Shown here: positions 3,035-21,710 of the stretch, piece after piece
Layout of the letters: each line of letters begins with the position of its first letter
Position numbering within the stretch: position 1 is the stretch's first letter
Notes under the pieces: model-generated
Databases searched by the model: none
The model's input: the letters and a program-made list of their open reading frames with translations, nothing else
What the model was told of the DNA's origin: nothing
Position numbers and translations under genes: made by a program
Virus record (IMG/VR): IMGVR_UViG_3300025809_000127
Coordinates: 1 to 23,323 of that record
DNA: 23,323 bases
Strand: one strand, 5' to 3'
Source: a virus

Positions 3035-3049
3035 TATGATAACTGAAAA
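3035..3049 (-). promoter_or_regulatory. Candidate phage late promoter, copy 1
   Basis: On the minus strand TTTTCAGTTATCATA ends two bases before the terminase ATG. The same 15 bases occur at 19546-19560 at the same distance from a start codon, and 12 of them at 21699-21710. Three intergenic copies upstream of packaging and head genes suggest a shared promoter or operator; a link to the phage sigma factor at 8089-8649 is inference. Confidence 0.6.
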
Positions 3050-3064
3050 TATACCAATCTGTTT

Positions 3065-3493
3065 TTAGTCTTCGTTCAACTCATCAACGTCAACTTCCTC
3101 TGCCTCAATGTCTATGGTATCCTCAAGTTGTTCTACTTGTTGAGGTGAAGCAAAGAAGTTAATGACTGGCGCATTGTTCTTATCTTGCTTATTGTCTGGG
3201 AGCTTATCCATTGGCTTGCCGTATCTATATTGAAACAGTAAGTTCATATGTGCAAAGGAGTCCTTAGCCTTCTCTGCTAATGTTTCCCAGGCTTCTTCCT
3301 CTGAGCCAAAGACTTTCTTCATTGCCTTTAGTGCATAGGTTCCTATCTGATCCTTCTTAGCTTGGTTAATCCTTGCTGGGGTCATACTTGCTTTCTTTAC
3401 TTGAACAGCTTTAATCCCTTGCTTGTTCTTTCCATTTGCTTTCCTACCATCTGTAGGTTTTATATTGCTTGAGTGTCTCTTAGGTTTTGTCAT
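3065..3493 (-). CDS. Probable terminase small subunit
   Basis: This 142-residue protein is placed directly before the large terminase and resembles small terminase subunits of Bacteroidota phages, which select viral DNA for packaging. It has a very basic N-terminus (residues 1-40), a central helical part (QIGTYALKAMKKVFGSEEE, AEKAKDSFAHMNLLFQYRYGKP) and a strongly acidic C-terminus ending VDVDELNED, a layout typical of the family. The frame is open up to 3544, but ATG 3493 overlaps the upstream gene by only 14 bases and begins MTKPKRHSS, so I prefer it. The call rests on position and layout more than on a strong motif. Confidence 0.7.
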   Translation of the reverse strand: MTKPKRHSSNIKPTDGRKANGKNKQGIKAVQVKKASMTPARINQAKKDQIGTYALKAMKKVFGSEEEAWETLAEKAKDSFAHMNLLFQYRYGKPMDKLPDNKQDKNNAPVINFFASPQQVEQLEDTIDIEAEEVDVDELNED

Positions 3494-3716
3494 TTTTCTT
3501 ATTGTATATTGTTTGGTATAGATTCCATATCTCTTGGTATACATCAGCTTCTTTGTGAAGCTGACTTATCTCATAATGTTTGTGTCCCACATCTACATGA
3601 ATGTTAAAGCCATCATTAACTACTACTGGATATACTCTGTAGTTATTATTAAAGCACCATACTTGTGCTTCATAATTCATATTATCTATCTTATATATTA
3701 TCTTCTTTCTTCTCAC
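3480..3716 (-). CDS. Hypothetical protein, 78 aa
   Basis: The frame begins with GTG 3716, whose GTGA overlaps the TGA stop of the DnaA-domain gene, a coupling pattern seen repeatedly in this operon. The 78-residue product starts MRRKKIIYKIDNMNYEAQVW, has several tyrosines and a VDVGHKHYEIS stretch, and looks like a small mixed alpha/beta protein. Its end overlaps the small terminase start by 14 bases. No family is recognised; placement between a replication-type gene and the terminase does not define a role. Confidence 0.65.
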   Translation of the reverse strand: MRRKKIIYKIDNMNYEAQVWCFNNNYRVYPVVVNDGFNIHVDVGHKHYEISQLHKEADVYQEIWNLYQTIYNKKNDKT

Positions 3717-4246
3717 CGAATCATATTAACCATAGCAGAGATCCTTTCTTCAAAGATTTGCAGTTGCTCTTCTGGAACTTGTGATGCAAGCTTCACTATA
3801 TTGCTTCGCTTGTCATCTCCATTATGACTCATTAAGTCTACCTCTATGTTAAGTCTCCTGATCTCTTCATCCTTTACTTTGATTAAGTCAATCATCTCAG
3901 TAAACTTATCTACTATAGACTTCTCTCTTTCTGTCATCATTACCTCTTCATCCTTTTGGTTAACAAGCTCTACAGGGTATCTATTGTGAAAGTCTTCGTA
4001 TATCTTATACAAGTCCTTGTCATATATCTTAACACCTTCAAATACTTTAAGACCGTGTAAGACTGTTGCGTGGTCTTTGCCAAACTTAGACCCTATATCT
4101 TTAAGACTGCGGAAAGTGTAGTCCTTAGCAAGCCTGTAGTATATAGCTCTACCCAAAACATAAACCCTCTCTCTTGTGTTCTTGTTTAAGTCTAAATTAG
4201 TTTTACTTTGTATTGTATCTATTATAAAATCTAAATCAATTTTCAT
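3713..4246 (-). CDS. Phage protein with DnaA domain IV-like helix-turn-helix
   Basis: The 177-residue product has, at about residues 20-75, the DNA-binding C-terminal domain of the DnaA initiator: FRSLKDIGSKFGKDHATVLHGLK contains the signature pattern (GxxFGRDHxTVLxA in bacterial DnaA). The AAA+ domain of DnaA is absent. A charged helical, probably coiled-coil C-terminal half follows. It may recognise DnaA-box-like sites in the phage or host origin, acting in replication or as a decoy; this is inferred. The frame extends upstream to a TTG at 4255, but ATG 4246 follows GAAAAGG and gives an 11-base overlap with the previous gene, so I use it. Confidence 0.8.
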   Translation of the reverse strand: MKIDLDFIIDTIQSKTNLDLNKNTRERVYVLGRAIYYRLAKDYTFRSLKDIGSKFGKDHATVLHGLKVFEGVKIYDKDLYKIYEDFHNRYPVELVNQKDEEVMMTEREKSIVDKFTEMIDLIKVKDEEIRRLNIEVDLMSHNGDDKRSNIVKLASQVPEEQLQIFEERISAMVNMIR

Positions 4247-4481
4247 CCTTTTCAAAGTTTATTTGGATAAGATCAGTCTTATCTTGTTCGTCTCTTATTT
4301 TGTAATAGTCTCCTATAAATGTGTATGTGTCTAAAGCTCTCTTTATACCAGCACATTGCTCATACATTTCCTTACGTTCATACTCCAACATAAGTAATCT
4401 TAAGTCTTGCTTGGTAATTTCGTGAGCTAAATCATACATAGCCATATAGTAAAACTCATCTATTATTTCTTTCTTTGACAT
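4236..4481 (-). CDS. Hypothetical protein, 81 aa
   Basis: This 81-residue, charged, mostly helical protein starts MSKKEIIDEFYYMAMYDLAHEI and contains ALDTYTFIGDYYKIRDEQDKTDL near its end. It has no membrane segment, cysteine motif or family signature that I recognise. It overlaps the lysozyme-like gene upstream by 26 bases and the DnaA-domain gene downstream by 11, so it sits inside a tightly packed operon and is very likely translated. Confidence 0.65.
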   Translation of the reverse strand: MSKKEIIDEFYYMAMYDLAHEITKQDLRLLMLEYERKEMYEQCAGIKRALDTYTFIGDYYKIRDEQDKTDLIQINFEKDEN

Positions 4482-4848
4482 CTAAATACTTTTGGTAGTA
4501 GCTTTTAGTTTGGTTATATTTATAACCCTTGTATATTCCGCCATTCCACATTCTAACCATCTCCTCTTCAGTAGGGAATCTACAATGCTTCTTAAGGAAT
4601 ACTTCTTTACCATAACAAAGATACAACATAAATACTTCTTCAGAAGCCTCCTCATAGAACATATCCTTGTGTCGGTAATCAGTACCATAAATACGATTAA
4701 CATCGCTTAGAACGCTCCTCTGTATCTGTAGAATGCCGTATGACCTTCCATTATCTCCTATTGAGTCTGGATTGTTATTTGTCTCTACCACCTTTAATAT
4801 AGACATAACCGACACCAAAGTACTCAAAATTATCAATATAGCTTGCAT
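4456..4848 (-). CDS. Lysozyme/transglycosylase-like protein
   Basis: The 130-residue product has the hallmarks of the lysozyme-like fold. A probable catalytic glutamate E22 lies in KVVETNNNPDSIGDNGRSYG, followed by LQIQ and RIYGTDY, and a late MWNGG motif, as in small SLT-type and goose-lysozyme-like phage proteins that cleave peptidoglycan. Residues 1-19 are hydrophobic (MQAILIILSTLVSVMSILK), which could be a signal or signal-anchor segment; a second ATG at 4806 would give a soluble form starting MSILKVVE. The long form overlaps the upstream gene by 74 bases, the short one by 32, so the start is uncertain. It lies among replication genes rather than with the lysis cassette, so an entry or regulatory role is possible. 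Confidence 0.7.
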   Translation of the reverse strand: MQAILIILSTLVSVMSILKVVETNNNPDSIGDNGRSYGILQIQRSVLSDVNRIYGTDYRHKDMFYEEASEEVFMLYLCYGKEVFLKKHCRFPTEEEMVRMWNGGIYKGYKYNQTKSYYQKYLDVKERNNR

Positions 4849-5032
4849 ATAATTTCAATTCTCTTATTACTCTATTCCAATAACATTCTTCGTTGAAGTT
4901 CTTAGACAACGTAAATCCTTTTAAAGCTATAGACATCGCTTTATTATAAGATTTATGTATCTTAAGTAAGTCTATGGCACAATGCCTTGCATACATTCTA
5001 TGCCCTTTTTTATAATACATCTTTAAGTACAT
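4775..5032 (-). CDS. Hypothetical basic protein, 85 aa
   Basis: The frame encodes up to 85 residues starting MYLKMYYKKGHRMYARHC; an in-frame ATG at 5020 would cut four residues. It is basic and helical at the N-terminus (HCAIDLLKIHKSYNKAM) and rich in tyrosine at the C-terminus. It overlaps the exonuclease gene upstream by 23 bases (11 with the later start) and the lysozyme-like gene downstream by 32 to 74 bases, an unusually deep overlap. I see no known family. It is probably real given the otherwise empty interval. Confidence 0.55.
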   Translation of the reverse strand: MYLKMYYKKGHRMYARHCAIDLLKIHKSYNKAMSIALKGFTLSKNFNEECYWNRVIRELKLYASYIDNFEYFGVGYVYIKGGRDK

Positions 5033-5783
5033 GATTGCGTACAGAATCTAATGGGTCTGTATCTATGTAGAAGTGCTTATAAATATTCATAGCCTGTCTT
5101 ACCTTCTCTCTTCCTCTCTCTATGAAGTCTCCACTACATTCAAAGATACCTATGTCTTTAGTATCCTTGTCAACTACTAAGAAGATAAACTCATCAGCAT
5201 CAAACAAAGATAAGTATAGAGCAGCCTGGAGATCATAGGAGAAGTTCTTAGCACTCCACTTAAAGTTAGGCACTCCTTTACTTGTAGTCTTTAGGTCAAT
5301 AATTGTCTTTCCTTTTATAGCATCGGCCTTACCTCTGAATGGTAATCCGTTTAACATCTTGATGGCTGGTGCTTCAAAGGTACAGCCATCTAATAAGTTG
5401 TAAGCTTCATTACAATTCTTAACAGCTTTAGCTATCCAATGTGCTGAGTCCATCTCTGACTTAGTGTACACAGTCTCTGGGCCGTGTTCAGCAGTAGCTT
5501 CCTTAAAAGCCTTTATAGCTTTGCTCCCATCTATAACAACCAACTCTTCTAACCTGTGTGGCTCCAGCACAGCTAAGTGTACAAGCCTACCATCTCTCAA
5601 TGGCTGAGAATTGCTGGAGCTGTACAAGCTCTTCTGATAAGCCTTTGGGCTATCTATTAGCTTCTTCGCAGCTGAACTGCTCAAAGCGTGTTTACCTAAA
5701 TGACCATAGTAAAAACTATCATCATACATTTTCTTTAGTATAGCTTCTTCTTCCCAAAGCTCTTTATTTAATAACTGTATCAT
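5010..5783 (-). CDS. RecE-like PD-(D/E)XK exonuclease
   Basis: The 257-residue product resembles the RecE/exonuclease VIII-type phage nucleases (DUF3799/PDDEXK_1), which resect double-stranded DNA for recombination by an annealing partner. Evidence: a LSSSAAKKLIDSP stretch near the start, RDGRLVHLAVLEPHR, then the catalytic core GKADAIKGKTIIDLKTTS (aspartates plus the D-x-K motif), and YDLQAALYLSLF with the conserved Q-x2-YL helix. It pairs functionally with the ERF protein at 10292-10753. The frame is open to 5855, but ATG 5783 makes an ATGA overlap with the upstream stop, so I use that start. Confidence 0.85.
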   Translation of the reverse strand: MIQLLNKELWEEEAILKKMYDDSFYYGHLGKHALSSSAAKKLIDSPKAYQKSLYSSSNSQPLRDGRLVHLAVLEPHRLEELVVIDGSKAIKAFKEATAEHGPETVYTKSEMDSAHWIAKAVKNCNEAYNLLDGCTFEAPAIKMLNGLPFRGKADAIKGKTIIDLKTTSKGVPNFKWSAKNFSYDLQAALYLSLFDADEFIFLVVDKDTKDIGIFECSGDFIERGREKVRQAMNIYKHFYIDTDPLDSVRNHVLKDVL

Positions 5784-5992
5784 CTGTAATATGTTTCTAA
5801 GATTTCTTCTTCTAATTGTTTTGTTGTCTCTTGATTCAACATAAAGTCTACACAAGCATCTCCTAAATAGATGCCGTATATATTGAACCTCTCTCTTTCA
5901 TAGGGCTCAAAATAAGTTTCTTTTTCCTCTGACTCATACATACCACAAACAGTAAACACAAGTCCTTCCCAAGTGATATCATACTCTTTCAT
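5780..5992 (-). CDS. Hypothetical acidic protein, 70 aa
   Basis: This 70-residue acidic protein starts MKEYDITWEGLVFTVCGMYE, has a YFEPYERERFNIYGIYLGD middle and ends with a Glu-rich helix. The mixed pattern of short strands and one C-terminal helix resembles small phage proteins that precede recombination genes, but I cannot name a family. Its TGA stop overlaps the exonuclease ATG (ATGA), so the two are probably translated together; it overlaps the 42-residue gene upstream by 14 bases. Confidence 0.65.
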   Translation of the reverse strand: MKEYDITWEGLVFTVCGMYESEEKETYFEPYERERFNIYGIYLGDACVDFMLNQETTKQLEEEILETYYR

Positions 5993-6107
5993 TGCTGTGC
6001 TGTTTAATGATTTCTACACATCTGTCAATCCAGTTTGAAACAAAGATTTGCTCTGTGTCTCTGAGATGATATGAGATCATCTCTAAGTCTTTAATTGCCT
6101 GTTCCAT
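5979..6107 (-). CDS. Small helical protein, 42 aa
   Basis: ATG 6107 to TGA 5979-5981 encodes 42 residues (MEQAIKDLEMISYHLRDTEQ at the start), predicted to be mostly helical with one cysteine. It is the first gene after the promoter at 6133-6163 and overlaps the next gene by 14 bases. Size and position resemble leader-proximal phage peptides; the function is unknown. Confidence 0.55.
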   Translation of the reverse strand: MEQAIKDLEMISYHLRDTEQIFVSNWIDRCVEIIKQHSNERV

Positions 6108-6132
6108 TTGTTATTTGTTTTAATGTTATACG

Positions 6133-6163
6133 CAAATATAAACATTATTTGTTAATAAACAAG
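6133..6163 (-). promoter_or_regulatory. Bacteroidota-type promoter for the nuclease/terminase operon
   Basis: On the minus strand TATATTTG (6133-6140) matches TAnnTTTG, and CTTG (6160-6163) sits 19 bases upstream at the -33 position. It lies between a strong terminator (6173-6198) and the 42-residue gene, marking a new transcription unit toward the terminase. Confidence 0.65.
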
Positions 6164-6172
6164 CATAAGTGT

Positions 6173-6198
6173 AAAAAAAAGAGAGGCTATGGCCTCTC
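6173..6198 (-). terminator. Terminator overlapping the DUF3310 stop codon
   Basis: On the minus strand GAGAGGC-cata-GCCTCTC (7-base stem) is followed by eight T. The TAG stop of the DUF3310 gene lies in the loop and stem edge, so the last codons form the 5' arm. It separates the sigma-factor operon from the exonuclease operon. Confidence 0.9.
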
Positions 6199-6459
6199 CT
6201 TGTAATTGTAGTTGTATGGACTGACTACTCCTTCTTTAACATCTTCAGCCTCTTTATTTCTAAGTTCCCTAACAAAAGCTATCTCTCTTTCAATGTAGTC
6301 TTTAGCTTTGTATAGGTCTTGCAGCTCATCATCTTTCTTTCCTGCCCTGGCAATATACTTAACAACATTGCCTCTGTTGAATGAAAGTTTGTAGTGTTGA
6401 CAGAAGTCTATTACATCGTAATCTCCTGTAGCTTCATAGTGTATTGCGTTTCCTCTCAC
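6187..6459 (-). CDS. DUF3310 family protein
   Basis: The 90-residue product carries the DUF3310 pattern: an N-terminal HYEATGDYDVIDFCQHY, then LSFNRGNVVKYIARAGKKD and DLYKAKDYIEREI. Members are common in phages and are often annotated as nucleotide kinases, although the biochemical role is not settled. The open frame reaches a TTG at 6492, but GTG 6459 makes a GTGA overlap with the preceding TGA stop and starts close to the domain, so I prefer it. It is the last gene of the sigma-factor operon, with its stop embedded in a terminator hairpin. Confidence 0.85.
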   Translation of the reverse strand: MRGNAIHYEATGDYDVIDFCQHYKLSFNRGNVVKYIARAGKKDDELQDLYKAKDYIEREIAFVRELRNKEAEDVKEGVVSPYNYNYKERP

Positions 6460-6659
6460 AGCTTTTCCATTTGAGATAAAACATCGTACCAATACGTTCT
6501 GTCATTGTAATGAGTTCTTGAGTGCATGATTAAATCTAAAATCTCATCAACACTTTTCTTTTTTGCATCAACAAACCCAACATTGTTTTCTTCAAATGAT
6601 TTCCAATTTGAGTTCAAAATGTGTCTGGCTTTCTCTAATTTTTCTTTACTGTTTTCCAT
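6456..6659 (-). CDS. Hypothetical helical protein, 67 aa
   Basis: This 67-residue protein starts MENSKEKLEKARHILNSNWK and is predicted almost fully helical, with alternating charges in the first 20 residues. The second half (DLIMHSRTHYNDRTYWYDVLSQMEKL) is richer in aromatics. It starts one base after the stop of the preceding gene and its TGA overlaps the GTG of the DUF3310 gene. No family is recognised. Confidence 0.6.
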   Translation of the reverse strand: MENSKEKLEKARHILNSNWKSFEENNVGFVDAKKKSVDEILDLIMHSRTHYNDRTYWYDVLSQMEKL

Positions 6660-6660
6660 A

Positions 6661-7011
6661 TTAATCTATCTTTAAAAATTCTGCGTTAGCGTATTCCTGA
6701 AACCATTCCTTATTGTCCTGGTACTTGTCTATTATTGCATCAATCATTACAAGTTCGTCAATTGAACTACCTTTAATCTTATCCATCAATGACTCTATCT
6801 TGTTTAAGATGTTAGTAACCATCTGCGGATCTGTGTTGTACAGATTGTTAAACTCTTCTCGCACAGTATCCTCAAGCATTATGTTTAGCTTGTTTACTTG
6901 CTGCTTTACATTCTGTCTGTATTGCTTAGTCAGCCTGAGGCCTTCATTGGCCTCTAACAACAACTGAGACAACAATACACTCTTCATATAATCTAATTGC
7001 ATTTTACTCAT
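6661..7011 (-). CDS. Hypothetical helical protein, 116 aa
   Basis: The 116-residue product is helical throughout, with a probable coiled-coil stretch from about residue 15 to 55 (LLLEANEGLRLTKQYRQNVK, then QQVNKLNIMLEDTVREEF) and a second helix pair ending near residue 100. ATG 7011 overlaps the stop of the endonuclease-like gene as ATGA, so the two are coupled and this protein could be a partner or inhibitor of that nuclease; that is inference from position only. No motif is recognised. Confidence 0.65.
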   Translation of the reverse strand: MSKMQLDYMKSVLLSQLLLEANEGLRLTKQYRQNVKQQVNKLNIMLEDTVREEFNNLYNTDPQMVTNILNKIESLMDKIKGSSIDELVMIDAIIDKYQDNKEWFQEYANAEFLKID

Positions 7012-7652
7012 ATTACATTTATTTTCATTGCTAATATAGTGTTTATTTGATTTAATACATATTCTTTGTCATAGAAAGTATCTGCTTGATAATATATAAT
7101 TATATGAGGAACATTGAATGTATCCTTATATAATTTAAGTTGGGACTGATGAAGATCCTTAGACTTTAATTGAAATGGAGAAGACATATGTTTATAGCTT
7201 ATTGGCTTTACCTGTATTCCAAAAAGTAATGTATCTGAGTAAGCTTCCCAATCAGTAAAGTAATTCTCATCTATATCATGAGTGGTCTTTCTAAAGTCAA
7301 TATTAGGAAATTCTAACTTAAGATCATCCATTAGCTCAATCTCTTTCACCATGCCATTCCAGGTCTGACCCAATACTCTATGAAAAACATAATTCTTAGC
7401 ATTTAATAAAGTGCAAGAATGTGTATCCACAATGTAATTACTTATGTCATTAAGGACATCTCTTCCTACATTGTCAAAATAATACCTAACCCATTCCTTA
7501 TCATCAAATGAATAATTATCATCTCTAATAAATAAATCAAATAACTCAGAACATTTTCCTACATTAGAAGACCAGAACATTCTGCTCAACTTAGTATTCT
7601 TCTTTAGCTTCTGATAAAGAGAGTTAGGTATATTGTATTCAAAATACTTCAT
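7008..7652 (-). CDS. Possible MjaI-like PD-(D/E)XK endonuclease
   Basis: The 214-residue product looks like a restriction-type nuclease. Around residues 130-160 it has IDENYFTDWEAY followed by LLFGIQVKPISY: an acidic cluster, then a hydrophobic strand ending in Q-V-K, the degenerate D-x(n)-(E/Q)-x-K core of PD-(D/E)XK enzymes. QVKPISY and GQTWNG upstream fit my memory of the MjaI restriction family, but this is not confirmed. No DNA methyltransferase is visible in the window, so if active it must spare phage DNA by other means. TAATG and ATGA overlaps couple it to both neighbours in the sigma-factor operon. Confidence 0.55.
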   Translation of the reverse strand: MKYFEYNIPNSLYQKLKKNTKLSRMFWSSNVGKCSELFDLFIRDDNYSFDDKEWVRYYFDNVGRDVLNDISNYIVDTHSCTLLNAKNYVFHRVLGQTWNGMVKEIELMDDLKLEFPNIDFRKTTHDIDENYFTDWEAYSDTLLFGIQVKPISYKHMSSPFQLKSKDLHQSQLKLYKDTFNVPHIIIYYQADTFYDKEYVLNQINTILAMKINVI

Positions 7653-8089
7653 TAACTATTGTATTCGTCTATAAGTTGTTTCAATGCGTTGTAAGTACTT
7701 CTAAAGCAAGAACCACAAGACGTAGGCTGCTTGTTCTCATTGAACACCCTATTGTAAATCTTCAACATCTTTAACTGAACAGTCTGACTAACTACATTAG
7801 TAGGTTTTGACATATGATCCACCAAGTAGTTATACTCCTCTTCAGCCAAGCATTCTATCTTCTTGTAAGGGAATACCTTATTGAGAGTAGTCTTTCTTTC
7901 TGAACACCCACAATCCTCTCCAGCTAAGAACTTAACTGCTGCTTTAATTCCTGTAGCTGTAGTAATTTTTTCAATGGTATCTCCAAGTCCAGTAGATTCA
8001 GAAGCTGTAGCTTCTTCTCTGGATACAACCCATTCTTTGTACTCCTTAGTGCGTTTGTCTAATGCTTCGTAGTAGGTTTGGTCTTTCAT
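7652..8089 (-). CDS. Conserved phage protein with two cysteine pairs
   Basis: The 145-residue product has a charged N-terminal helix, a GLGDTIEKITTATGIKAAVKFL segment around residues 34-55, then CGCSERK near residue 60 and SCGSCFR near residue 125. The four cysteines could form one metal site. LNKVFPYKK and a helical IYNRVFNE lie between. I recall similar GLGDTI/CGC proteins in Bacteroidota phages but know no function. Its ATG overlaps the sigma-factor TAA (TAATG), so it is made together with the sigma factor and could modulate it; that is inferred. Confidence 0.65.
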   Translation of the reverse strand: MKDQTYYEALDKRTKEYKEWVVSREEATASESTGLGDTIEKITTATGIKAAVKFLAGEDCGCSERKTTLNKVFPYKKIECLAEEEYNYLVDHMSKPTNVVSQTVQLKMLKIYNRVFNENKQPTSCGSCFRSTYNALKQLIDEYNS

Positions 8090-8649
8090 TACTTCTTTGA
8101 TTTGATTAAGTGAAAATCACCATTAGAATAATCCTGGTAATCTTCTATGAATTTGTTGTTTAATATATTCTTGTAATTCTTAATAGAATTGTATATACTC
8201 ATAAGAGTTATGCCAGAGCCATTTGCAATGTCTCTAAGCGATAAGTTTGTCTTAAAGTATAGCGAAGACAATATAATGTCGTAGCGTTCCCAACCCATAA
8301 TCTCTGAAGACATAGAGTCTATTAAATTGTGGAATGCCTCTTGTTCATCAAACTGACTGCTATCAAATTCAACATCATCTTGAATATCATCAGTTTCTAT
8401 ATATTCAAAGAACTTGTATTTGTTTCTTGCTTTCACATAGTCAACAAACATATTTTTTAGTGTAACATAGATGAAGAATCTATTGACCTCATCATCATTG
8501 TACATAATCTTTTTCTCATCAGTAACAAGCCTATGTATCCGCAAATACATACTCTGCACTATATCTTCTGCGATGTGCTTATCACATCCCATGTTGACAA
8601 CCATCTTAATCCATAAGGTGTGGTTATCTGCAAGTTTTTCTAATATCAA
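8089..8649 (-). CDS. Phage-encoded sigma-70 family (ECF-like) factor
   Basis: The 186-residue protein has the two conserved regions of group IV sigma factors. Region 2, about residues 8-80, contains IAEDIVQSMYLRI and FFIYVTLKNMFVDYVKARNK. Region 4, about residues 118-165, is a helix-turn-helix with LSLRDIANGSGITLMSIYNSIKNY. An acidic linker (DDIQDDVEFD) separates them. It should direct host RNA polymerase to phage promoters; the repeated motif upstream of terminase and head genes is a plausible target. The frame starts at a TTG (8649) whose TTGA overlaps the RusA stop; the first in-frame ATG is at residue 16, inside region 2, so TTG is likely. A weak start may limit its dose. Confidence 0.88.
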   Translation of the reverse strand: MILEKLADNHTLWIKMVVNMGCDKHIAEDIVQSMYLRIHRLVTDEKKIMYNDDEVNRFFIYVTLKNMFVDYVKARNKYKFFEYIETDDIQDDVEFDSSQFDEQEAFHNLIDSMSSEIMGWERYDIILSSLYFKTNLSLRDIANGSGITLMSIYNSIKNYKNILNNKFIEDYQDYSNGDFHLIKSKK

Positions 8650-9062
8650 TATCTAAGTGTTAGGGTTATTTTATCAGTTTCCCCATAGAACTTTTCTAAG
8701 TTATTTATACAAACAATATTCTGATCTTGCTCATAGACTACTCCCTCCAAGGCATCTAAGAATGCCTTGTTGAGATTATCTTGTAAATCAGGTTTGGTTG
8801 GTTTATAAATCTTGCCTTGTTGTCTTTTCTTTTTACTAAATGCTTTTGGATATGCATACTGATAATGTAGCTGGTCTATGAAAATCAAAGTACCAGCAGG
8901 GATTATTTCAAACCCCTCTGGCAATTGATCGCTAACCAACTTAATTACATATGCTTGATAATCCACTATCTTTTTTGGTTTGTAAGACCTACCACTACGG
9001 GTGAACCTTACAGATTGATGAGGTTGCGCCCTCAAGTTGAATGTTAATTCTAATTTATTCAA
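8646..9062 (-). CDS. rusA: RusA-like Holliday junction resolvase
   Basis: The product (138 residues from TTG 9062) is a RusA-family endonuclease, which resolves Holliday junctions during phage recombination and before packaging. It starts LELTFNLRAQPHQS as RusA proteins do. The catalytic segment KPDLQDNLNKAFLDALEGVVYEQD shows the conserved aspartates and the LDAL-GVVY-D pattern. No ATG is available near the domain start. The candidates are TTG 9077 and TTG 9062; I prefer the latter because AAAGAAG precedes it and the overlap with the ATPase gene is only 8 bases. Its TGA overlaps the sigma-factor TTG. Confidence 0.88.
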   Translation of the reverse strand: MNKLELTFNLRAQPHQSVRFTRSGRSYKPKKIVDYQAYVIKLVSDQLPEGFEIIPAGTLIFIDQLHYQYAYPKAFSKKKRQQGKIYKPTKPDLQDNLNKAFLDALEGVVYEQDQNIVCINNLEKFYGETDKITLTLRY

Positions 9063-9909: not shown

Positions 9910-9933
9910 ATTGTTGAAATATTTAAAAGGAGA

Positions 9934-9953
9934 GATGGGGCCTAAGCCCCATC
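9934..9953 (-). terminator. Hairpin in the gap before the ATPase gene, possible attenuator
   Basis: On the minus strand GATGGGGC-ttag-GCCCCATC (8-base stem, 4-base loop) is followed by TCTCCTTTTAA. The imperfect T-tract suggests a partial terminator that lowers expression of the downstream ATPase relative to the SSB-like gene, or a 3' stabilising hairpin. Confidence 0.55.
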
Positions 9954-9967
9954 AAGTCCTTTATTTA

Positions 9968-10261
9968 CTAAAATGGTAAATCGGCAGCAGCTGAAACCTC
10001 TACCTTCTCAGTAGCCGCACCCTTTGGTGTAGGCTTGAAGGTATTTAAGGAAAAATACATTCCCTGCTTTCCAGATAGCATATTAAGCTTTAACTGCTTA
10101 TTGCCTTTGTATTCTGAATAGTATTCTTTATGAGTTGATACGAACTCAAAGAATTTTTTTAGTTCTACAATAACCTCACCTTTTACAAATTCTGGTGCGG
10201 TTTCTCTTGGGTTGAAGAATCTCAATCCGTCTACGAAAATAGTCTCTTTTGTGTTACTCAT
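9968..10261 (-). CDS. SSB-like protein
   Basis: The 97-residue product has a compact N-terminal part with alternating hydrophobic strands (IFVDGLRFFNP, GEVIVELKKFFEFV, KQGMYFSLNTF) and a low-complexity tail of about 20 residues ending AADLPF. The tail resembles the DDIPF tip by which single-stranded DNA-binding proteins recruit partners. Position between the ERF annealing protein and the ATPase also fits a phage SSB. It is shorter than standard SSB and I cannot place it in a named family. A palindrome lies just upstream (10272-10283) and a hairpin downstream. Confidence 0.6.
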   Translation of the reverse strand: MSNTKETIFVDGLRFFNPRETAPEFVKGEVIVELKKFFEFVSTHKEYYSEYKGNKQLKLNMLSGKQGMYFSLNTFKPTPKGAATEKVEVSAAADLPF

Positions 10262-10291
10262 TGTGTTAATTATTAACGTTAATATTAATTG

Positions 10292-10773: not shown

Positions 10774-10781
10774 CAAATTTA
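10774..10781 (-). promoter_or_regulatory. Possible promoter before the ERF gene
   Basis: TAAATTTG on the minus strand matches TAnnTTTG and lies 20 bases before the ERF start in a 52-base gap. No clear TTTG is found at the -33 position, so this is a weaker candidate than those at 1260, 6133 and 12372. Confidence 0.4.
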
Positions 10782-12371: not shown

Positions 12372-12403
12372 CAAACATATATAATTATAAAACACCAGTC
12401 AAG
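12372..12403 (-). promoter_or_regulatory. Bacteroidota-type promoter for the ParB-like operon
   Basis: On the minus strand TATGTTTG (12372-12379) fits TAnnTTTG and CTTG (12400-12403) lies 20 bases upstream. It sits between the terminator at 12424-12458 and the ATG at 12342, giving a leader of about 25 bases. Confidence 0.65.
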
Positions 12404-13119: not shown

Positions 13120-13127
13120 CAAATATA
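13120..13127 (-). promoter_or_regulatory. Promoter-like box directly in front of a start codon
   Basis: TATATTTG on the minus strand matches TAnnTTTG and ends 3 bases before ATG 13116. Upstream bases (to about 13200) are extremely AT-rich, but no TTTG stands at the -33 distance. If used, the transcript would have almost no leader. Confidence 0.45.
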
Positions 13128-14489: not shown

Positions 14490-14498
14490 AGTTTAAAT

Positions 14499-14520
14499 GG
14501 GGGCTTTTACACCCCCTTTT
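14499..14520 (+). terminator. GC hairpin between adhesin and lysis genes
   Basis: GGGGG-cttttaca-CCCCC (14499-14516) is followed on the plus strand by TTTTATTTT. Read on the minus strand, the direction of all genes here, the trailing sequence is ATTTAAAC, a poor T-tract. It thus looks better suited to stop antisense transcription, or it may act as a weak bidirectional terminator. Confidence 0.5.
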
Positions 14521-14523
14521 ATT

Positions 14524-15525: not shown

Positions 15526-15535
15526 ATTATATTAT

Positions 15536-15988
15536 TTAAAGGTTAATATCAAACAATAAAACAGCCTTTTTAGACGTTAATGCTTTTATTTCTGATTCTA
15601 TTGTATCACTTTTTGTTCTTAATTCTGCTCTTTCTCCTCTTACATCAACGGGAGTTGCTTCGCCACTATCGGATTCACGAATAATATACCAATCTGTTGA
15701 AGATAATTGACCACCTACCATATATTTTAATTGTTGAATTTTTCGTGCTTTTAATTCAGATAATGAATCCTCAATTTTTAAATCCACAACATCATAGGTA
15801 TAAACATCACCGTCTAAGTGTAATTTAGATATTTCCTCTATTCTTGAATCAAATGTAGGATACACCACATCTTTAAACCCTAAAGCAGCGTAGTCTTTAA
15901 TGTTTTCGTGAATTCTTTCTCCATCGTTCCAAGACTTTGGTAATGTGCCAAATGTTTTTATTTCTCCGTTGATTTCTATTGCTTTCAT
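15536..15988 (-). CDS. Tail-fibre chaperone-like or fibre-associated protein
   Basis: The 150-residue product begins MKAIEINGEIKTFGTLPKSW, has a central YTYDVVDLKIEDSLSELKARKI helix and the segment STDWYIIRESDSGEATPVDV followed by ERAELR. The TDWYxxRxxD...P...R pattern near the C-terminus resembles tail-fibre assembly or DUF4376-like proteins, where this region follows the fibre-binding part. It lies between a fibre gene and the adhesin gene, as chaperones often do. The family call is moderate; the position is supportive. Confidence 0.55.
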   Translation of the reverse strand: MKAIEINGEIKTFGTLPKSWNDGERIHENIKDYAALGFKDVVYPTFDSRIEEISKLHLDGDVYTYDVVDLKIEDSLSELKARKIQQLKYMVGGQLSSTDWYIIRESDSGEATPVDVRGERAELRTKSDTIESEIKALTSKKAVLLFDINL

Positions 15989-16009
15989 TTTATATGTTTT
16001 ATTTAATTA

Positions 16010-16594
16010 TTATGCGGGTTGTGAAATAGTGTAGTAATATAATCCGTATCCTAATTTAACCATTTGTATTAGGTTTGTTACCGTACCGTCATAGTCTCCT
16101 GCGATTTTTACTGCAAGGTTTGCGCCTGTGTTTTGGAAAGTCAATGCAAAATCACCTGTACAAACAATATACTTAACATCGCCAAGATTAAAATTAGTGT
16201 AAGTTAAATCAGTCGCCCCCGTTAATGTTAAAGTTGCTTCACTATATAATCCCCAATCAAGGTTTACTGTTCCTGTAGATGAATTATTTGTGTAATTAGT
16301 TTTATATTCAGCCCCTAAATTAGCATAATCAATTACATCGTCTGCAATAGTTAATGCGGTTGCTCCTGTTACGTCCCCTGTATGGTCGTAGTTAGGTGCA
16401 TCATTGGTAACTGTTACCGCTCCTGTTGTTTGGTCTACAGAAATACCTACTCCTGCCGATACTGAATTAACGTCTCCTGCATCATCAGCATAGAGTTCTG
16501 TAAAGTTGTCATTTACTTTATCGAATGCACTTCTTAATGGGTCTCCTGTACCATCATTAGCAACCGTTCCGATATTAATTGTTTGTTGTGCCAT
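16010..16594 (-). CDS. Tail-fibre protein
   Basis: The 194-residue protein starts with INIGTVANDGTGDPLRSAFDKVNDNF (split across residues 5-30), a segment very common at the N-terminus of phage tail fibres that attach to the virion. The rest is Thr/Asn/Gly-rich beta-prone sequence (VSAGVGISVD, HTGDVTGATALTIADDV, TGATDLTYTNF), typical of a trimeric shaft, and a short C-terminal head ending YYYTISQPA. It is a short fibre and is followed by a chaperone-like gene and an adhesin, so the receptor contact may lie in those. Confidence 0.8.
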   Translation of the reverse strand: MAQQTINIGTVANDGTGDPLRSAFDKVNDNFTELYADDAGDVNSVSAGVGISVDQTTGAVTVTNDAPNYDHTGDVTGATALTIADDVIDYANLGAEYKTNYTNNSSTGTVNLDWGLYSEATLTLTGATDLTYTNFNLGDVKYIVCTGDFALTFQNTGANLAVKIAGDYDGTVTNLIQMVKLGYGLYYYTISQPA

Positions 16595-16618
16595 TTTTTG
16601 ATTGTTTAATTATTATTT

Positions 16619-16798
16619 TTAATATTTAGTTTGGTCTGCTGTTATATTTGAATTGTCAGCCATTAATAATGTAGTATCTACTCGTAAGAAACTACCATCT
16701 GCATCTGTTGGATATACAATACCCCATCCATTAGGTTCATCTGTATTTCCGAACCAACTACTTTGATAACTTATCCCCCAATTTATACTGTTTGCCAT
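16619..16798 (-). CDS. Small virion-type protein, 59 aa
   Basis: ATG 16798 to TAA 16619-16621 encodes 59 residues starting MANSINWGISYQSSWFGNT and ending TTLLMADNSNITADQTKY. The MANxINWG start and ADGS...DTT...T...TAD end match small proteins I recall next to tail-fibre genes in Bacteroidota phages. It probably belongs to the virion. It overlaps the preceding 41-residue frame by 41 bases and is followed after 24 bases by the fibre gene. Confidence 0.65.
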   Translation of the reverse strand: MANSINWGISYQSSWFGNTDEPNGWGIVYPTDADGSFLRVDTTLLMADNSNITADQTKY

Positions 16799-16883
16799 TT
16801 TTGTTTATCTTGTTTAAATAAGCTTCTAACTTTATTATATTACTCTTTTTTGGCTTATATGTTATAATTTCCTTTTTTTCCAT
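16758..16883 (-). CDS. Small lysine-rich protein, 41 aa
   Basis: ATG 16883 overlaps the TAA of the adaptor gene by one base (TAATG), a coupling also seen at 8089, 7652 and 22392. The frame runs to TAG 16758-16760 and gives 41 residues, very rich in lysine (MEKKEIITYKPKKSNIIKLE at the start). It overlaps the next gene by 41 bases. Coupling and base composition favour a real gene, but it is short and without a family. Confidence 0.45.
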   Translation of the reverse strand: MEKKEIITYKPKKSNIIKLEAYLNKINKNGKQYKLGDKLSK

Positions 16884-17398
16884 TATAGAACCCAAGAATG
16901 AAAGTTTACATCACGATCTGGATACATTTCACCATTAGTGGACTCGTTATACTCTGGATAGTCTTGGCTATAAAATCCCATATAATCAACAAACCTACGA
17001 GTATAAAACTCTGCGGTTTCTGTTACCCTATTTAACATTGCATTCATCTCTTCTAAAGAGATTGTCTCAGCATTTTCACTTCTATGTTTAAATACACCTC
17101 CATTGCTAATTTGATACATAGCAAATGGCAAGTAAGAACTTTGCGTAAACCAAACAAGCATGGGCTTGATATAAACATCAATCAAACTCTTATATTTAGC
17201 ATTTGCAACTAAATCAATATCACCAGAAATAACTAAAGCTTGCAATTTGTTATATAATTTACCTCCTAAATAATTCTGTATATGAGTATCTTGTGCTACC
17301 TCAATAAATTGTATTAACTTGTCTCCATCAACATTGCCGTCAATGATTGACTTTCTCTTTAAATCGTTTAGTGTTATAAAAAGTGCCTTCTGCGCCAT
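16883..17398 (-). CDS. Probable neck/head-tail adaptor protein
   Basis: The 171-residue helical protein follows the portal gene, where head-completion or adaptor proteins sit. It starts MAQKALFITLNDLKRKSIID, then has VDGDKLIQFIEVAQDTHIQN, YLGGKLYNKL, and a middle IDVYIKPMLVWFTQSSYLPF, features that fit the DUF6712-like adaptor proteins of Bacteroidota phages as I recall them. The C-terminus (HSWVL) is polar and exposed. It would connect the portal ring with the tail. The family name is from memory and unverified. Confidence 0.65.
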   Translation of the reverse strand: MAQKALFITLNDLKRKSIIDGNVDGDKLIQFIEVAQDTHIQNYLGGKLYNKLQALVISGDIDLVANAKYKSLIDVYIKPMLVWFTQSSYLPFAMYQISNGGVFKHRSENAETISLEEMNAMLNRVTETAEFYTRRFVDYMGFYSQDYPEYNESTNGEMYPDRDVNFHSWVL

Positions 17399-17400
17399 AT

Positions 17401-19167
17401 TTATTTAGTTTTTGGATATGCTCCTCTATTTGGCATATCTGTAGGTCTTACTGGTACTTCACTCGGGTTTGTAGGCTCGTTAAAACCATCTTTTACTGCA
17501 TCAGATGCTTCTACTTCCGTATCAGCACTTACCTTCTTCTTATAAACCTTTCTTTCCCAGAAATGATGGCAATTAACTCCTCCTTTGAACTTAAATAGAG
17601 AATAATTTTGACCATTATGACCTAATTCGTTATTTAATCCCTTGAAAGACATTTGTGAGATGTCTTCTTTTCTAAATACAATCTCCTTCTTAGTTAAAGA
17701 CTCTAATTGCTTACAGAATTTACGGCTATTTGCAGACTCTCTAAGAGGCCCGTAGCTATATCTGATCTTATACCCCGAATTGTCCTGAGAAGAGCGTGCA
17801 GATGCCTTAGAATCGCTTTCTGTTACCGCTAAAGCAGTTAAGTCAAACTCTTCATTTTCGTTTGTTACTTCTTCAGAATGTACAAGCTCCCAATCAGAGC
17901 TAATTACCTCACCCATATCTTCTAATTGAGCGTATAAGTCATCTCCTTCATCATCAGAGAAGTCAAGTTTAGCCTGGGAAGATAATTTCTCCCCAGTCTC
18001 CTCTTCTCTCTTAACTTTAGTAGAAATATTTTCTAACTCTGTAAACTCAATAGGTTGTAGTGTTACAAAGTATAAGTTTAAGAATATACTGTTAAACTGC
18101 AATATCTCTTCCAAGCCATCTAAAATGGCTTGTTGGAATGGTCTAATAACAATATTATCCATAAGGATAGAAGCCGTTCTAAGCTCTTCTGCGTTGTTAC
18201 CAAATCCAGTATTATCCTTAATACCTAACAAGATTGGAGACACAATACCGTGACCTAACATTATCTTCTCTCTACTCTCGTCAGCTAAGAACTGATACTG
18301 AGCGTGAGCATCAGGCAGGTGAATAGGCTCTAAGTCTGCTTTACTTTCAGCACTCTCGTTAAACGTCAGTATAAATTTACCAGCATTTGAAGAGCCGCTA
18401 AACTTATCCATTATTTTTCTTTCAATAATCTCTTGTGTCTCCTCGTTGGGAACACCATTATTGAAGTTAATTAGCAAAGATGGCTGTAAGCCATTCTTTA
18501 TGTTGTTTATGTGGTAGTTTGATACTTCCTCTTCAAGTGAGCAGTACTGTAAGCATCCATTATAATCAACTGGAGCATAGTAGTAGAATCCACTTCTATA
18601 TGGCTTAAATATATATAACTCAATAACATCACCTTTTGCTCCATTTCCAAAAGTAGGGATTCTCTTAGGTTTATCAGAAGGCTTTATGTCGCACCACTTT
18701 GGGTGATAGTAGTAAGCATTAATCTTACCGTCTTTAGCCTTCTCAGCTCTCAATGTTTCCATTGGAAAGTGTAGTACTTTTACTATACTTGTCTTTTGCT
18801 TGTTGTAAACAACTTGAATAGCCGCTTGACCAAGCATCTTGTAATCATTAGATACTCTTTTAATCTCTCTTGGCTTAAGAAGCATCTTCATTTTGGTATA
18901 CATCTCTGGCTTAATGTCAGAGTCCGTGGCTTCAAGGCCACGGCCATATATCATATCTACAATACCGTTAATACAACGAGCATTCGTAGGACTTCCTAAA
19001 TACTTCTCTATTAGATTGTCAAAGTAGTCATTATCATCACCATACTGAACCCAATCTTTACCATAAACCTCTCTAACGATAGGAGTTTGATATCCAGACA
19101 AGTTCACAATCCTTGTAGACCCTTGAACCTTTTGTTTTGGTTGTAATGTAGTTTTTCTATGTTTCAT
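17401..19167 (-). CDS. Portal protein
   Basis: The 588-residue protein is the portal, the dodecameric ring through which DNA enters and leaves the head. The core runs from YGDDNDYFDNLIEKYLGSPT (about residues 43-62) through VDMIYGRG and KMLGQAAIQVVYNK-like strands to the wing and crown. ESREKIMLGHGIVSPILLGI and DNTGFGNNAEELRTASI near residue 310 are characteristic of Bacteroidota phage portals. The last 180 residues are more polar and end in a Pro/Glu-rich tail. It starts one base after the upstream stop and is followed after two bases by the adaptor gene. Confidence 0.88.
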   Translation of the reverse strand: MKHRKTTLQPKQKVQGSTRIVNLSGYQTPIVREVYGKDWVQYGDDNDYFDNLIEKYLGSPTNARCINGIVDMIYGRGLEATDSDIKPEMYTKMKMLLKPREIKRVSNDYKMLGQAAIQVVYNKQKTSIVKVLHFPMETLRAEKAKDGKINAYYYHPKWCDIKPSDKPKRIPTFGNGAKGDVIELYIFKPYRSGFYYYAPVDYNGCLQYCSLEEEVSNYHINNIKNGLQPSLLINFNNGVPNEETQEIIERKIMDKFSGSSNAGKFILTFNESAESKADLEPIHLPDAHAQYQFLADESREKIMLGHGIVSPILLGIKDNTGFGNNAEELRTASILMDNIVIRPFQQAILDGLEEILQFNSIFLNLYFVTLQPIEFTELENISTKVKREEETGEKLSSQAKLDFSDDEGDDLYAQLEDMGEVISSDWELVHSEEVTNENEEFDLTALAVTESDSKASARSSQDNSGYKIRYSYGPLRESANSRKFCKQLESLTKKEIVFRKEDISQMSFKGLNNELGHNGQNYSLFKFKGGVNCHHFWERKVYKKKVSADTEVEASDAVKDGFNEPTNPSEVPVRPTDMPNRGAYPKTK

Positions 19168-19168
19168 A

Positions 19169-19543
19169 TTATAATACTATGTATTCGCTTTCACCCTCAC
19201 CAACATATTCATCATATTCATTAGTGTTTATAGTGTGAACAACTTCATCGTCTGTTTGGCTTGTAACATAAGCCTTATCTCTGTAAAATAAAGAGCCGTT
19301 TCTTGTGAACTCTAAATAATATGCGTTTTCCTCAGATAGTATACTAAATGCAATATCCATATATACAAAATTACTATTGCTATCTGGAATCGTTGCTTCA
19401 ATATCTGTAATAGTCTCAGATTTGTTTGTGCCATCCTCTGTTATTGTCAGACTAACGTCAGTAAAGGATGCATCAGCAGTTGGAAATTCCCTGGGAATAA
19501 CTGCAATAATCTGAGCATCTGTACTTGGTAGTAATCTTATCAT
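19169..19543 (-). CDS. Hypothetical virion protein, 124 aa
   Basis: The 124-residue product is beta-rich and acidic at the end (NEYDEYVGEGESEYIVL). The pattern of strands (DVSLTITEDG, NFVYMDIAFSIL, AYYLEFTRNGSLFYRDKAYV) suggests an Ig-like or jelly-roll module as in many small head or decoration proteins. It lies directly before the portal and is the first gene after the terminator at 19580-19606. The candidate late promoter TTTTCAGTTATCATA (19546-19560) ends two bases before its ATG, the same arrangement as at the terminase gene. Confidence 0.65.
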   Translation of the reverse strand: MIRLLPSTDAQIIAVIPREFPTADASFTDVSLTITEDGTNKSETITDIEATIPDSNSNFVYMDIAFSILSEENAYYLEFTRNGSLFYRDKAYVTSQTDDEVVHTINTNEYDEYVGEGESEYIVL

Positions 19544-19545
19544 AA

Positions 19546-19560
19546 TATGATAACTGAAAA
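19546..19560 (-). promoter_or_regulatory. Candidate phage late promoter, copy 2
   Basis: TTTTCAGTTATCATA on the minus strand, identical over 15 bases to 3035-3049 and at the same two-base distance from the ATG. It lies just downstream of a terminator, so a fresh start of transcription toward the portal is expected here. Confidence 0.6.
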
Positions 19561-19579
19561 GTATGTTTTTTGTTTTAAA

Positions 19580-19606
19580 TAGAAAAGGGAGGGCTTTCGC
19601 CCTCCC
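19580..19606 (-). terminator. Terminator before the portal unit
   Basis: On the minus strand GGGAGGGC-gaaa-GCCCTCCC (8-base stem with a GAAA loop, 19587-19606) is followed by TTTTCTATTT. It ends the unit containing the gene at 19639-20169. Confidence 0.9.
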
Positions 19607-19610
19607 CCTT

Positions 19611-19638
19611 CTGTGTTTAAGAGTACTGTGTTTAAGAA
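19611..19638 (+). repeat. Two copies of the 15-base dispersed repeat
   Basis: CTGTGTTTAAGAG (19611-19623, missing its first two bases) and TACTGTGTTTAAGAA (19624-19638) lie head to tail between a stop codon and a terminator. The orientation is the same as the other six copies. Confidence 0.8.
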
Positions 19639-20169
19639 TTACTGTACTAAAAACCCTGCTGTAGCAAGAGTACCATCAGTACTAATTATGAAGTTAGCAG
19701 GAACTCTTTCCATTCCTGTTAGAGTAAGTGTATATCCAGATAGTTCAGACATTGCTCCTCCAGTAACAACAGTTCCTCCAGTTACGTCCATTCCGTGCTC
19801 TAATCCAGCTAAAAAGAAGTTTCCGTTGTAGTCCTCGACAATAACTTGAGGTCTTCCGTAAGAAAGTAATTTTAATTCTTTGTTATCGGTAAGAGTTAAC
19901 TTCTTCAAAGTAATTTCTAATACTTGCTCAAAAGCTGTAGTACCAGTTTCTCTTGAAGACTGAATGTTTTGCGTAAAAGTGGACGTTCCTTTGATATCGT
20001 ATTTGTAAGCTGGTGTGTCAGCAGCAACTGATACAATAACATCCTCTTCACCCGCTACTGCGCTTTTAACAGCAGCTAAATCAGTAAAATTTACAAAGTA
20101 AATAGCATTTAAACCACCTACTGAGTCTTTACACGGCTCTATACGGCCGCTTGTTAAATTACAAGACAT
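19639..20169 (-). CDS. Virion structural protein, possibly tail tube or head protein
   Basis: The 176-residue protein starts MSCNLTSGRIEPCKDSVGGL and has alternating strands (AIYFVNFTDL, AYKYDIKGTSTFTQNI, FEQVLEITLKKL, PQVIVEDYNGNFFLAGLEHG, GYTLTLTGMERVPANF) that suggest a beta-barrel. Bacteroidota phages carry similar genes next to the capsid gene, usually labelled as structural; I am not certain whether it is a tube-like or head-decoration protein. It has two nearby cysteines (C3, C13). Terminators flank it on both sides, so it may be expressed at its own level. Confidence 0.65.
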   Translation of the reverse strand: MSCNLTSGRIEPCKDSVGGLNAIYFVNFTDLAAVKSAVAGEEDVIVSVAADTPAYKYDIKGTSTFTQNIQSSRETGTTAFEQVLEITLKKLTLTDNKELKLLSYGRPQVIVEDYNGNFFLAGLEHGMDVTGGTVVTGGAMSELSGYTLTLTGMERVPANFIISTDGTLATAGFLVQ

Positions 20170-20194
20170 ATTTTTATATTTTTATAAGATTAAT

Positions 20195-20231
20195 TAAAAA
20201 AGGGTAGGCAGGCTTTACGGCTTACCTACCC
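20195..20231 (-). terminator. Terminator after the capsid gene
   Basis: On the minus strand GGGTAGG (20225-20231) pairs with CCTACCC (20202-20208) around a 16-base loop region, followed by TTTTTT. Strong termination directly after the capsid gene is common in phages that make capsid mRNA in large amounts. Confidence 0.85.
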
Positions 20232-20253
20232 TTTCTATTTATTTAGTTGGTGA

Positions 20254-21204
20254 TTAAGCTACTGGAGTGTAAAGAACGATGTCAGAACCAATTCCGTATT
20301 GTACTCCTGCAAGTAATCTCATAACAACTCTTACGTTTTGAGATCCGTCAATGTCAGCCATATCAATAACTTTTACTTCGTTGATATCAGATAACAATCC
20401 AGTACCAAAGTATAAGTTAGATTTTTCAGCAGCCATCATAAAGTTGCTTCCAAGGCCGTTGGCTACAAAGATGGAAACTCCATCAAAACTGAGGCTGCCA
20501 TTATTGAACCATTGTGTTCCTTGTGCATTTGTACCGTTAGCTCCTAAGCCAGCAGCAGCAAATCCTCCTAATGCTCTAACGTAAGCTCTTGCTACGTTTT
20601 GAGAAACATATAGGTTAAGGTCTTCTTTTCCGTATAATGTGTCAGGAATAGCGTCAACAACTTTTCCCATTTCATCAATTACGTTAGCGGCAGTAACACC
20701 ACCAGCAGCAATAGAAGCTCCAGCTACATCAACTACATCGCCATCAGCGGTAGCTAAAGTTACTAATCCGTCAAATTCACCAGCGTTAGCAGTAACTCCA
20801 GACCAGATGTTTGTTTCGTTCTTTTGAGCTACTTTAGCAGCAACATGAGCAATTAAGAAATCAGCGAAAGATGGAGGTAAGCTATCAAAAGCAGATACTC
20901 CCATTTCAACAGCCTCCCAGTCAGAACGGAAGTCTTTCTTACATAACTGTAAGTTAACTTGGAATTCTTCTGGTTGGATGATTCTTTCAGTTAATGTAAC
21001 AGTTGACGTTGGGTCAAAGTCACAAGTAGCATCTTTAAGTACATCGTCAGTAGCAATCTTTTTGATTACTTCTTTGTACTTGATGTTTGGTTTTACTTCG
21101 ATTCCACCATTCTCAATGGTAGAAGCAGATAATAATGCAGCAGAAATATATTTTCCAGCAAATTCACCTGCGTAAGTTGTAGTGATAGATGTGTTAGTTG
21201 GCAT
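20254..21204 (-). CDS. Major capsid protein
   Basis: The 316-residue protein is the main head subunit, probably of the HK97 fold. It starts MPTNTSITTTYAGEFAGKYI and includes a long helix with IQPEEFQVNLQLCKKDFRSD, the Ala/Gly-rich core LIAHVAAKVAQKNETNIWSG, the strand set NLYVSQNVARAYVRALGG and the C-terminal VRVVMRLLAGVQYGIGSDIV that matches the last strands of phage capsids. The acidic scaffold gene lies directly upstream and a strong terminator follows, a layout typical of a capsid gene. Size is close to other Bacteroidota phage capsids. Confidence 0.85.
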   Translation of the reverse strand: MPTNTSITTTYAGEFAGKYISAALLSASTIENGGIEVKPNIKYKEVIKKIATDDVLKDATCDFDPTSTVTLTERIIQPEEFQVNLQLCKKDFRSDWEAVEMGVSAFDSLPPSFADFLIAHVAAKVAQKNETNIWSGVTANAGEFDGLVTLATADGDVVDVAGASIAAGGVTAANVIDEMGKVVDAIPDTLYGKEDLNLYVSQNVARAYVRALGGFAAAGLGANGTNAQGTQWFNNGSLSFDGVSIFVANGLGSNFMMAAEKSNLYFGTGLLSDINEVKVIDMADIDGSQNVRVVMRLLAGVQYGIGSDIVLYTPVA

Positions 21205-21208
21205 TGTT

Positions 21209-21667
21209 TTATTGTTTAGAGATTTTAGATAATACTAAGTCAAATGTAGTTGCACCTCTTTTTTGAGAGTACAAGTTTAATGTTTTAGATTCAACAGCTT
21301 CTTCTGGAGAGTGCTTTAATTCTGCAACCTCTTCTTGAGCTGATAATTCTGTAGCTTCTTCAGCTAATTCTTTTGGAGCATCTATAGCATCTTCGGTGCT
21401 CATAGATTCCATAATTTGGTCATACATAGCTTTCATTTCAGCCATTGCTTGAGCCAACTCTTCTTTAGTAGCATACTTGTCTTCGCTTTCAACAACATCT
21501 TCTACGATGTCCTCAGCTGCATCAGCAACTGGCTCTTCAGCTAAAACCTCTTGCTCCTGCTCGGATAAAACTACTTCTTCTTTCGCCTCAATAGCTTCAG
21601 TAGCTACTTCTTCAGGCTTAGAAAGCAGAATCTCCTTGAATTTGTCAACGATTTCTTTTGCGTTCAT
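21209..21667 (-). CDS. Probable scaffold protein
   Basis: The 152-residue protein is strongly acidic, with Glu/Ala/Val-rich repeats from residue 18 to about 75 (EVATEAIEAKEEVVLSEQEQ, ending VVESEDKYATKEE), a helical centre (AQAMAEMKAMYDQIMESMS) and a short basic C-terminus (NLYSQKRG, ILSKISKQ) of the kind that scaffolds use to touch capsid subunits. It starts 50 bases after the neighbouring 41-residue gene and lies four bases before the capsid ATG. No protease motif is seen. The candidate late promoter at 21699-21710 precedes it. Confidence 0.65.
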   Translation of the reverse strand: MNAKEIVDKFKEILLSKPEEVATEAIEAKEEVVLSEQEQEVLAEEPVADAAEDIVEDVVESEDKYATKEELAQAMAEMKAMYDQIMESMSTEDAIDAPKELAEEATELSAQEEVAELKHSPEEAVESKTLNLYSQKRGATTFDLVLSKISKQ

Positions 21668-21698
21668 ATTAATTGGGTTATTTATTTACTAAATATGT

Positions 21699-21710
21699 TA
21701 TGATAACTGA
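21699..21710 (-). promoter_or_regulatory. Candidate phage late promoter, copy 3
   Basis: TCAGTTATCATA on the minus strand, shared with 3035-3049 and 19546-19560. Here the motif ends 31 bases before the scaffold ATG, unlike the two-base distance at the other sites, which argues for a promoter or operator rather than a ribosome-binding element. Confidence 0.55.

Follow-up and report, generated by a model that had tools for sequence, protein, structure and literature searches.

A short repeated sequence in a marine Bacteroidetes phage very probably serves as the on-switch of its virion genes. The repeat, TCAGTTATCATA, lies in a viral stretch of 23,323 nucleotides (nt) (IMG/VR record IMGVR_UViG_3300025809_000127, positions 1 to 23,323; the whole stretch is referred to hereafter as the window), and it is the downstream half only of a two-box element, AAAACA-N14/15-[A/C]GTTANNATA. 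The complete element is most likely a late promoter, to which an extracytoplasmic function (ECF)-like sigma factor encoded by the phage would direct the host RNA polymerase, yielding mostly leaderless mRNAs. A first-pass annotation of the window had put forward the repeat as a candidate late promoter read by the phage's sigma, and the comparison with related genomes favors this reading: the bipartite element is conserved and relocated at late operons, early genes have host-type promoters, and an ECF-like sigma is present in every near-complete relative. Little has been described of how Bacteroidetes phages programme their transcription, and a search of the literature turned up no late promoter described for this phage group.

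A Bipartite Element Upstream of Virion Genes

Nearly all genes of the window have the minus strand as their coding strand. TCAGTTATCATA is present there in exactly three copies, all of them on the coding strand and in gaps, with no copy on the opposite strand of the window. Two copies form part of TTTTCAGTTATCATA, whose 15 bases are identical at 3049-3035 and 19560-19546 (minus strand), stopping in both cases two bases short of an ATG (3032 and 19543, respectively); the third copy (21710-21699, minus strand) is followed by an ATG 31 bases downstream, at 21667. Coordinates, identity, ATG distances and placement are thus as first annotated. The upstream half of the element, AAAACA, is situated 14-15 nt 5' of AGTTATCATA at the three sites (ATAACA at the scaffold site), and the overall geometry can be described as AAC, 15-16 nt and [A/C]GTTA; taking the A of the ATG as +1, the boxes cover approximately -33 to -28 and -12 to -3, the usual places of promoter boxes. 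A site-scoring matrix, trained on ten other genomes with the window and its nearest relative excluded, ranks these three sites highest (26.4, 26.4, and 21.4; next best in the window, 13.1; mean maximum in shuffles, 12.1), although the training sites were picked by pattern and the scores represent a consistency check, not an unbiased test. The repeat within the window alone is not compelling, since such repeats are frequent in dinucleotide shuffles: one or more 12-mers reach three copies on one strand in 20% of them, and a 15-mer is duplicated in 55%. The initial statement that a 12-base match occurring three times in 23 kb is very unlikely by chance was therefore too strong.

Conservation Across Related Phages

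More than 150 IMG/VR contigs were gathered by capsid, terminase and sigma searches, and whole relatives were read. By portal and capsid, no named relatives turned up other than Nonlabens phages P12024S and P12024L, at about 35% identity. The full element is found in the window, in 13 marine relatives and in cultured P12024S, and matches were counted over these 15 genomes. The coding strands hold 49 matches, 48 of them intergenic though 88% of these genomes is genic; the opposite strands hold seven, several of which correspond to the promoter of a non-coding RNA described below. Reversed-pattern controls gave two and three matches, and a control pattern gave none in a scan of 30 records. In a count that involves no model, no other intergenic 9-mer in the window clade is as strand-biased as TCAGTTATC (15 regions against 0). 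The distance to the ATG is 2 nt at 31 of the 49 sites, 3 nt at two, 15-17 nt at seven and 30-31 nt at another seven.

Relatives carry the element before the same operons as the window, and over all these genomes the operons behind it comprise terminase, scaffold-capsid, pre-portal(-portal), head-maturation-protease-like and phrog_32199 genes. Relatives keep the motif 2 nt from the ATG of the homologue of the 19169-19543 gene (down to 37% protein identity), 2-3 nt from that of the terminase and about 31 nt from that of the scaffold. In several relatives the terminase promoter is located before TerS, not TerL, and the 2-nt spacing is retained. In one relative (G013; L298, about 1650-2240), a 194-amino acid open reading frame (ORF) stands between TerS and TerL, directly behind the terminase promoter and with a 3-nt spacing. 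Variants of the -10 box include TTAGTTATCATA in some relatives and TCGTTATCATA in one; the window clade has AGTTA, while P12024S and one relative have AAC-N15/16-CGTTA. In P12024S, six sites are present, exclusively on the coding strand, and each is separated from an ATG (at 179, 3031, 5412, 23961, 25201 and 26802) by 2-3 nt; their AAAACA boxes lie 33-34 nt upstream of it. Among close relatives, none was found to keep the sigma gene and lose the motif.

The Phage Sigma Factor as Candidate Reader

The protein encoded at 8089-8649 is probably the reader of the late promoter, as suggested by co-occurrence, promoter geometry and joint divergence in P12024S, where the sigma has diverged and the -10 box has diverged as well (CGTTAATATA). 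Its architecture is limited to sigma-2 and sigma-4, seen as two helical domains in an AlphaFold2 model (predicted local distance difference test, 77.7), and the top five PDB matches of this model are ECF sigmas or their complexes (sigma-L, sigma-E, AlgU, SigK, and SigW; probability 1.00). Homologues occur, in the same gene order, in nearly every long relative; the marine motif-bearing contigs with no sigma match (G012, G015, G016, and G021) lack the sigma region or are cut there. Searching the named phages for the sigma with tblastn gave no match; its position in P12024S is occupied by gp33, identified by that position and its sigma-70 region 2 annotation, which passes the corresponding Pfam cut-off (25.2 bits). 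In bacterial genomes only two weak matches were retrieved, both in Aminicenantes. The cysteine-containing protein adjoining the sigma (7652-8089) is possibly its partner or co-factor.

What the sequences show directly is the element, with its strand bias, placement and conservation, and the covariation of the RNA; the following scheme of sigma specificity, start sites and timing is inferred from them. The sigma would be expressed from host-type promoters in the early region, bind the host RNA polymerase and redirect it to the late promoters, which would be used across the phage family related to P12024S; the sigma-4 domain would read the AAC-containing -35 box, and the sigma-2 domain the [A/C]GTTA -10 box. 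This would turn on the terminase, scaffold-capsid, pre-portal-portal, head-protease and phrog_32199 operons, together with, in relatives, a structured non-coding RNA arising from one promoter copy that faces the other way. At most late promoters, the first transcribed base would be the A of the start codon or one a few bases away from it, whereas a minority would produce leaders of 15-31 nt. Leaderless mRNAs are predicted because the spacing is 2-3 nt at 33 of the 49 sites, and the 2-nt coupling to the ATG is most simply explained by a transcription start at the AUG; the leaderless implication, first drawn from two sites, thus appears to gain comparative support.

Host-type TANNTTTG boxes precede early genes of the window (coding strand, five; other strand, one), and the late motif is absent from those that have them (ParB-like, Erf-like, and others). 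The late motif itself has no TANNTTTG -7 box, in agreement with the earlier remark that it does not fit the host pattern, whose consensus has been described (PMC6847099). An early leaderless mRNA is also possible from the host-type box at 13127-13116. A relative (G014) has a similar box 4 nt from an early-gene ATG.

A Divergent Non-coding RNA in Relatives

Relatives spanning the GP88-phrog_32199 region carry the late promoter on the opposite strand (with a degenerate -35 box in some of them, CAAACA or TGAACA), followed by a conserved transcript-like block with no ORF; the window ends short of this locus. The RNA is about 180-215 nt long (e.g., L167:10971-11154, minus; L084:6886-7067, minus; L313:14276-14486, plus). 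Sixteen aligned sequences (alignment A1) display strong covariation, with double changes in 25 of 35 pairs, 94.8% of cells paired and a score of 0.584; shuffles score 0.191, and slid structures do not exceed 0.093. The fold includes two pseudoknots, one of which pairs the 5' hairpin loop with the segment that follows, and the other the central hairpin loop with the 3' region. Rfam searches gave no match at the gathering score and no credible one in evalue mode, and nhmmer did not find the RNA in P12024S or freshwater phages. A tRNA identity for the opposite-strand transcript was rejected, with ARAGORN finding none in 25 genomes. At L096:6712-7041 and L107:14385-14714 (both minus), the same promoter and position are followed by a different RNA (e.g., GAGTGGGTAAGCGTGTAGATTTTGCCAACAATGG). 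Tentatively, and with more doubt than conviction, one phage ECF-like sigma could run a late regulon in which leaderless virion mRNAs are joined by this divergent double-pseudoknot RNA, the latter contributing to virion assembly, packaging or the control of late genes. If so, this marine phage family would conserve a class of phage RNA for which no counterpart has been described.

Weighing of Alternative Explanations

Several observations weigh against the proposed promoter and its reader. The window sigma scores 14.3 bits against Pfam sigma-70 region 2, below the cut-off of 24, and the PDB matches of its model have expectation values of 2e-3 to 1e-2 and low whole-chain template modelling scores, the latter to be expected of two loosely linked domains. 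In nine freshwater relatives, with sigmas 27-37% identical in those where one was found, a de novo search for an equivalent promoter yielded only AT-rich words and no recognisable motif. Regarding start sites, most mRNAs of Flavobacterium johnsoniae carry a leader, 87% of leaders being longer than 10 nt, and transcription starts 4-5 nt after the -7 box (PMC6847099); this geometry, applied to the late promoter, would place the start inside the ATG.

The late promoter might also be read by a host sigma, such as a host ECF sigma, instead of the phage one, which we consider unlikely. Hosts of this phylum carry many ECF sigmas, the -35/-10 geometry is generic, and one site passes a loose sigma-70 scan; however, nearly all long relatives keep a sigma of their own, the -10 box is a different one in P12024S, whose lineage carries the most diverged sigma, and the motif misfits the host housekeeping box. 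An operator for a phage activator or repressor, such as the DnaA-like helix-turn-helix protein (3713-4255) or the ParB-like protein, is more improbable still: the phage does encode helix-turn-helix proteins and the palindrome TTATCATAtTATGATAA occurs within one site (at 19557), but this palindrome is not shared by the other sites, and an element made of two boxes with fixed promoter-like spacing and constant orientation, just upstream of the start of a gene or RNA, speaks against an operator. An RNA-level translation-initiation signal, which would account for the 2-base spacing at most sites, has very little left in its favor, as it is contradicted by the sites 15-31 nt from the ATG, by the conserved box 14-15 nt further upstream and by the same element before a non-coding RNA; the third window site had already been taken as an argument against ribosome binding. 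Finally, the chance repetition of an AT-rich word, for which the shuffles leave room in the window, is ruled out for practical purposes by conservation at orthologous operons in 15 genomes.

A late promoter read by the phage sigma thus being the preferred explanation, a sequence-defined promoter with its candidate sigma would allow genes in many marine phage contigs to be predicted as early or late, and cultured P12024S offers a test system for the specificity of ECF-like sigmas. Besides, the late operons provide a natural set of predicted leaderless mRNAs in a phylum without Shine-Dalgarno signals, and the promoter has led to a conserved structured RNA overlooked by gene annotation.

Genes and Other Features of the Window

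The features are collected in Table 1. The hairpin before the portal-operon promoter is probably the end of the preceding transcript. The protein encoded at 3713-4255 has a DnaA C-terminal DNA-binding domain (Pfam Bac_DnaA_C, 44 bits). The sequence CTTAAACA[T/C]AG is present in eight copies, in tight clusters at 19636-19610, 13815-13787, and 1717-1647, and relatives also have copies.

Table 1. Promoter boxes, genes and related features of the window.
Feature	Position	Strand	Remarks
-35-like box AAAACA, terminase promoter	3060..3065	-	Overlaps end of 3065-3544 gene; conserved at TerL in relatives
-10-like box AGTTATCATA (inside TCAGTTATCATA, 3035-3046)	3035..3044	-	2 nt before TerL ATG
-35-like box AAAACA, portal-operon promoter	19571..19576	-	Matrix scan
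-10-like box AGTTATCATA, portal operon	19546..19555	-	2 nt before ATG 19543; kept in relatives to 37% protein identity
-35-like box ATAACA, scaffold promoter	21723..21728	-	Matrix scan
-10-like box AGTTATCATA, scaffold	21699..21708	-	31 nt before scaffold ATG; relatives keep spacing
Hairpin, then TTTTCTATTT	19587..19606	-	Just 5' of portal-operon promoter; stem listed on other strand
Host-type TATATTTG box	13120..13127	-	3 nt before early-gene ATG (span 13127-13116)
Host-type TATGTTTG box	12372..12379	-	Before ParB-like gene; TTG 20 nt upstream
Host-type TAAATTTG box	10774..10781	-	Before Erf-like gene
Host-type TATATTTG box	6133..6140	-	Before early gene cluster
Host-type TATATTTG box	1260..1267	-	Upstream of GP88 cluster
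ECF-like sigma, 186 amino acids	8089..8649	-	Weak match to phrog_1740; sigma-2 core-binding motif AEDIVQ, also in relatives; C-terminal helix-turn-helix as sigma-4
Conserved cysteine-containing protein, 145 amino acids	7652..8089	-	Next to sigma gene in nearly all relatives; counterpart in P12024S still recognisable (29%)
Terminase large subunit	1812..3032	-	Pfam Terminase_3, 108 bits; PHROG terminase
124-amino acid protein directly before portal	19169..19543	-	No family match
Portal protein	17401..19167	-	phrog_33693, 359 bits
Putative scaffold, acidic, directly before capsid gene	21209..21667	-	Position and composition only
Putative major capsid protein	20254..21204	-	phrog_11320 and phrog_1623, virion structural

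Comparison With Known Systems

In T4 late transcription, the phage sigma gp55 sends the host polymerase to late virion promoters (TATAAATA). The likeness resides in a phage-encoded sigma, here proposed, taking the host polymerase to virion promoters; T4 promoters, however, lack a -35 box and depend on the sliding clamp for activation, whereas here a -35-like box goes together with an ECF-like two-domain sigma. ECF (group 4) sigmas, such as Streptomyces sigma-E, are alike in their two domains and, in part, in their promoters, whose -35 box can contain AAC and whose spacer of 16-17 bp is similar in length (PMC6767563). Of the CGT expected in an ECF-type -10 box, P12024S and one relative have a copy, while the window clade reads AGTTA. 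The sigma described here differs in being phage-borne and below the Pfam cut-off, with AGTTATC or CGTTA as -10 box and a start codon at the expected start site. The Bacteroidetes housekeeping promoter (TTTG / TANNTTTG) is used by the same phage before early genes, but is wholly lacking in the late motif. Leaderless phage transcripts share a promoter box a few bases before the ATG, with mRNAs predicted to begin at the AUG; here they would belong to a single promoter class throughout a phage family. Phages also carry structured non-coding RNAs, such as the phi29 packaging RNA and the GOLLD and ROOL RNAs. The divergent RNA is likewise structured, non-coding and phage-carried, but differs from them in having no Rfam match and a two-pseudoknot covariation pattern of its own.

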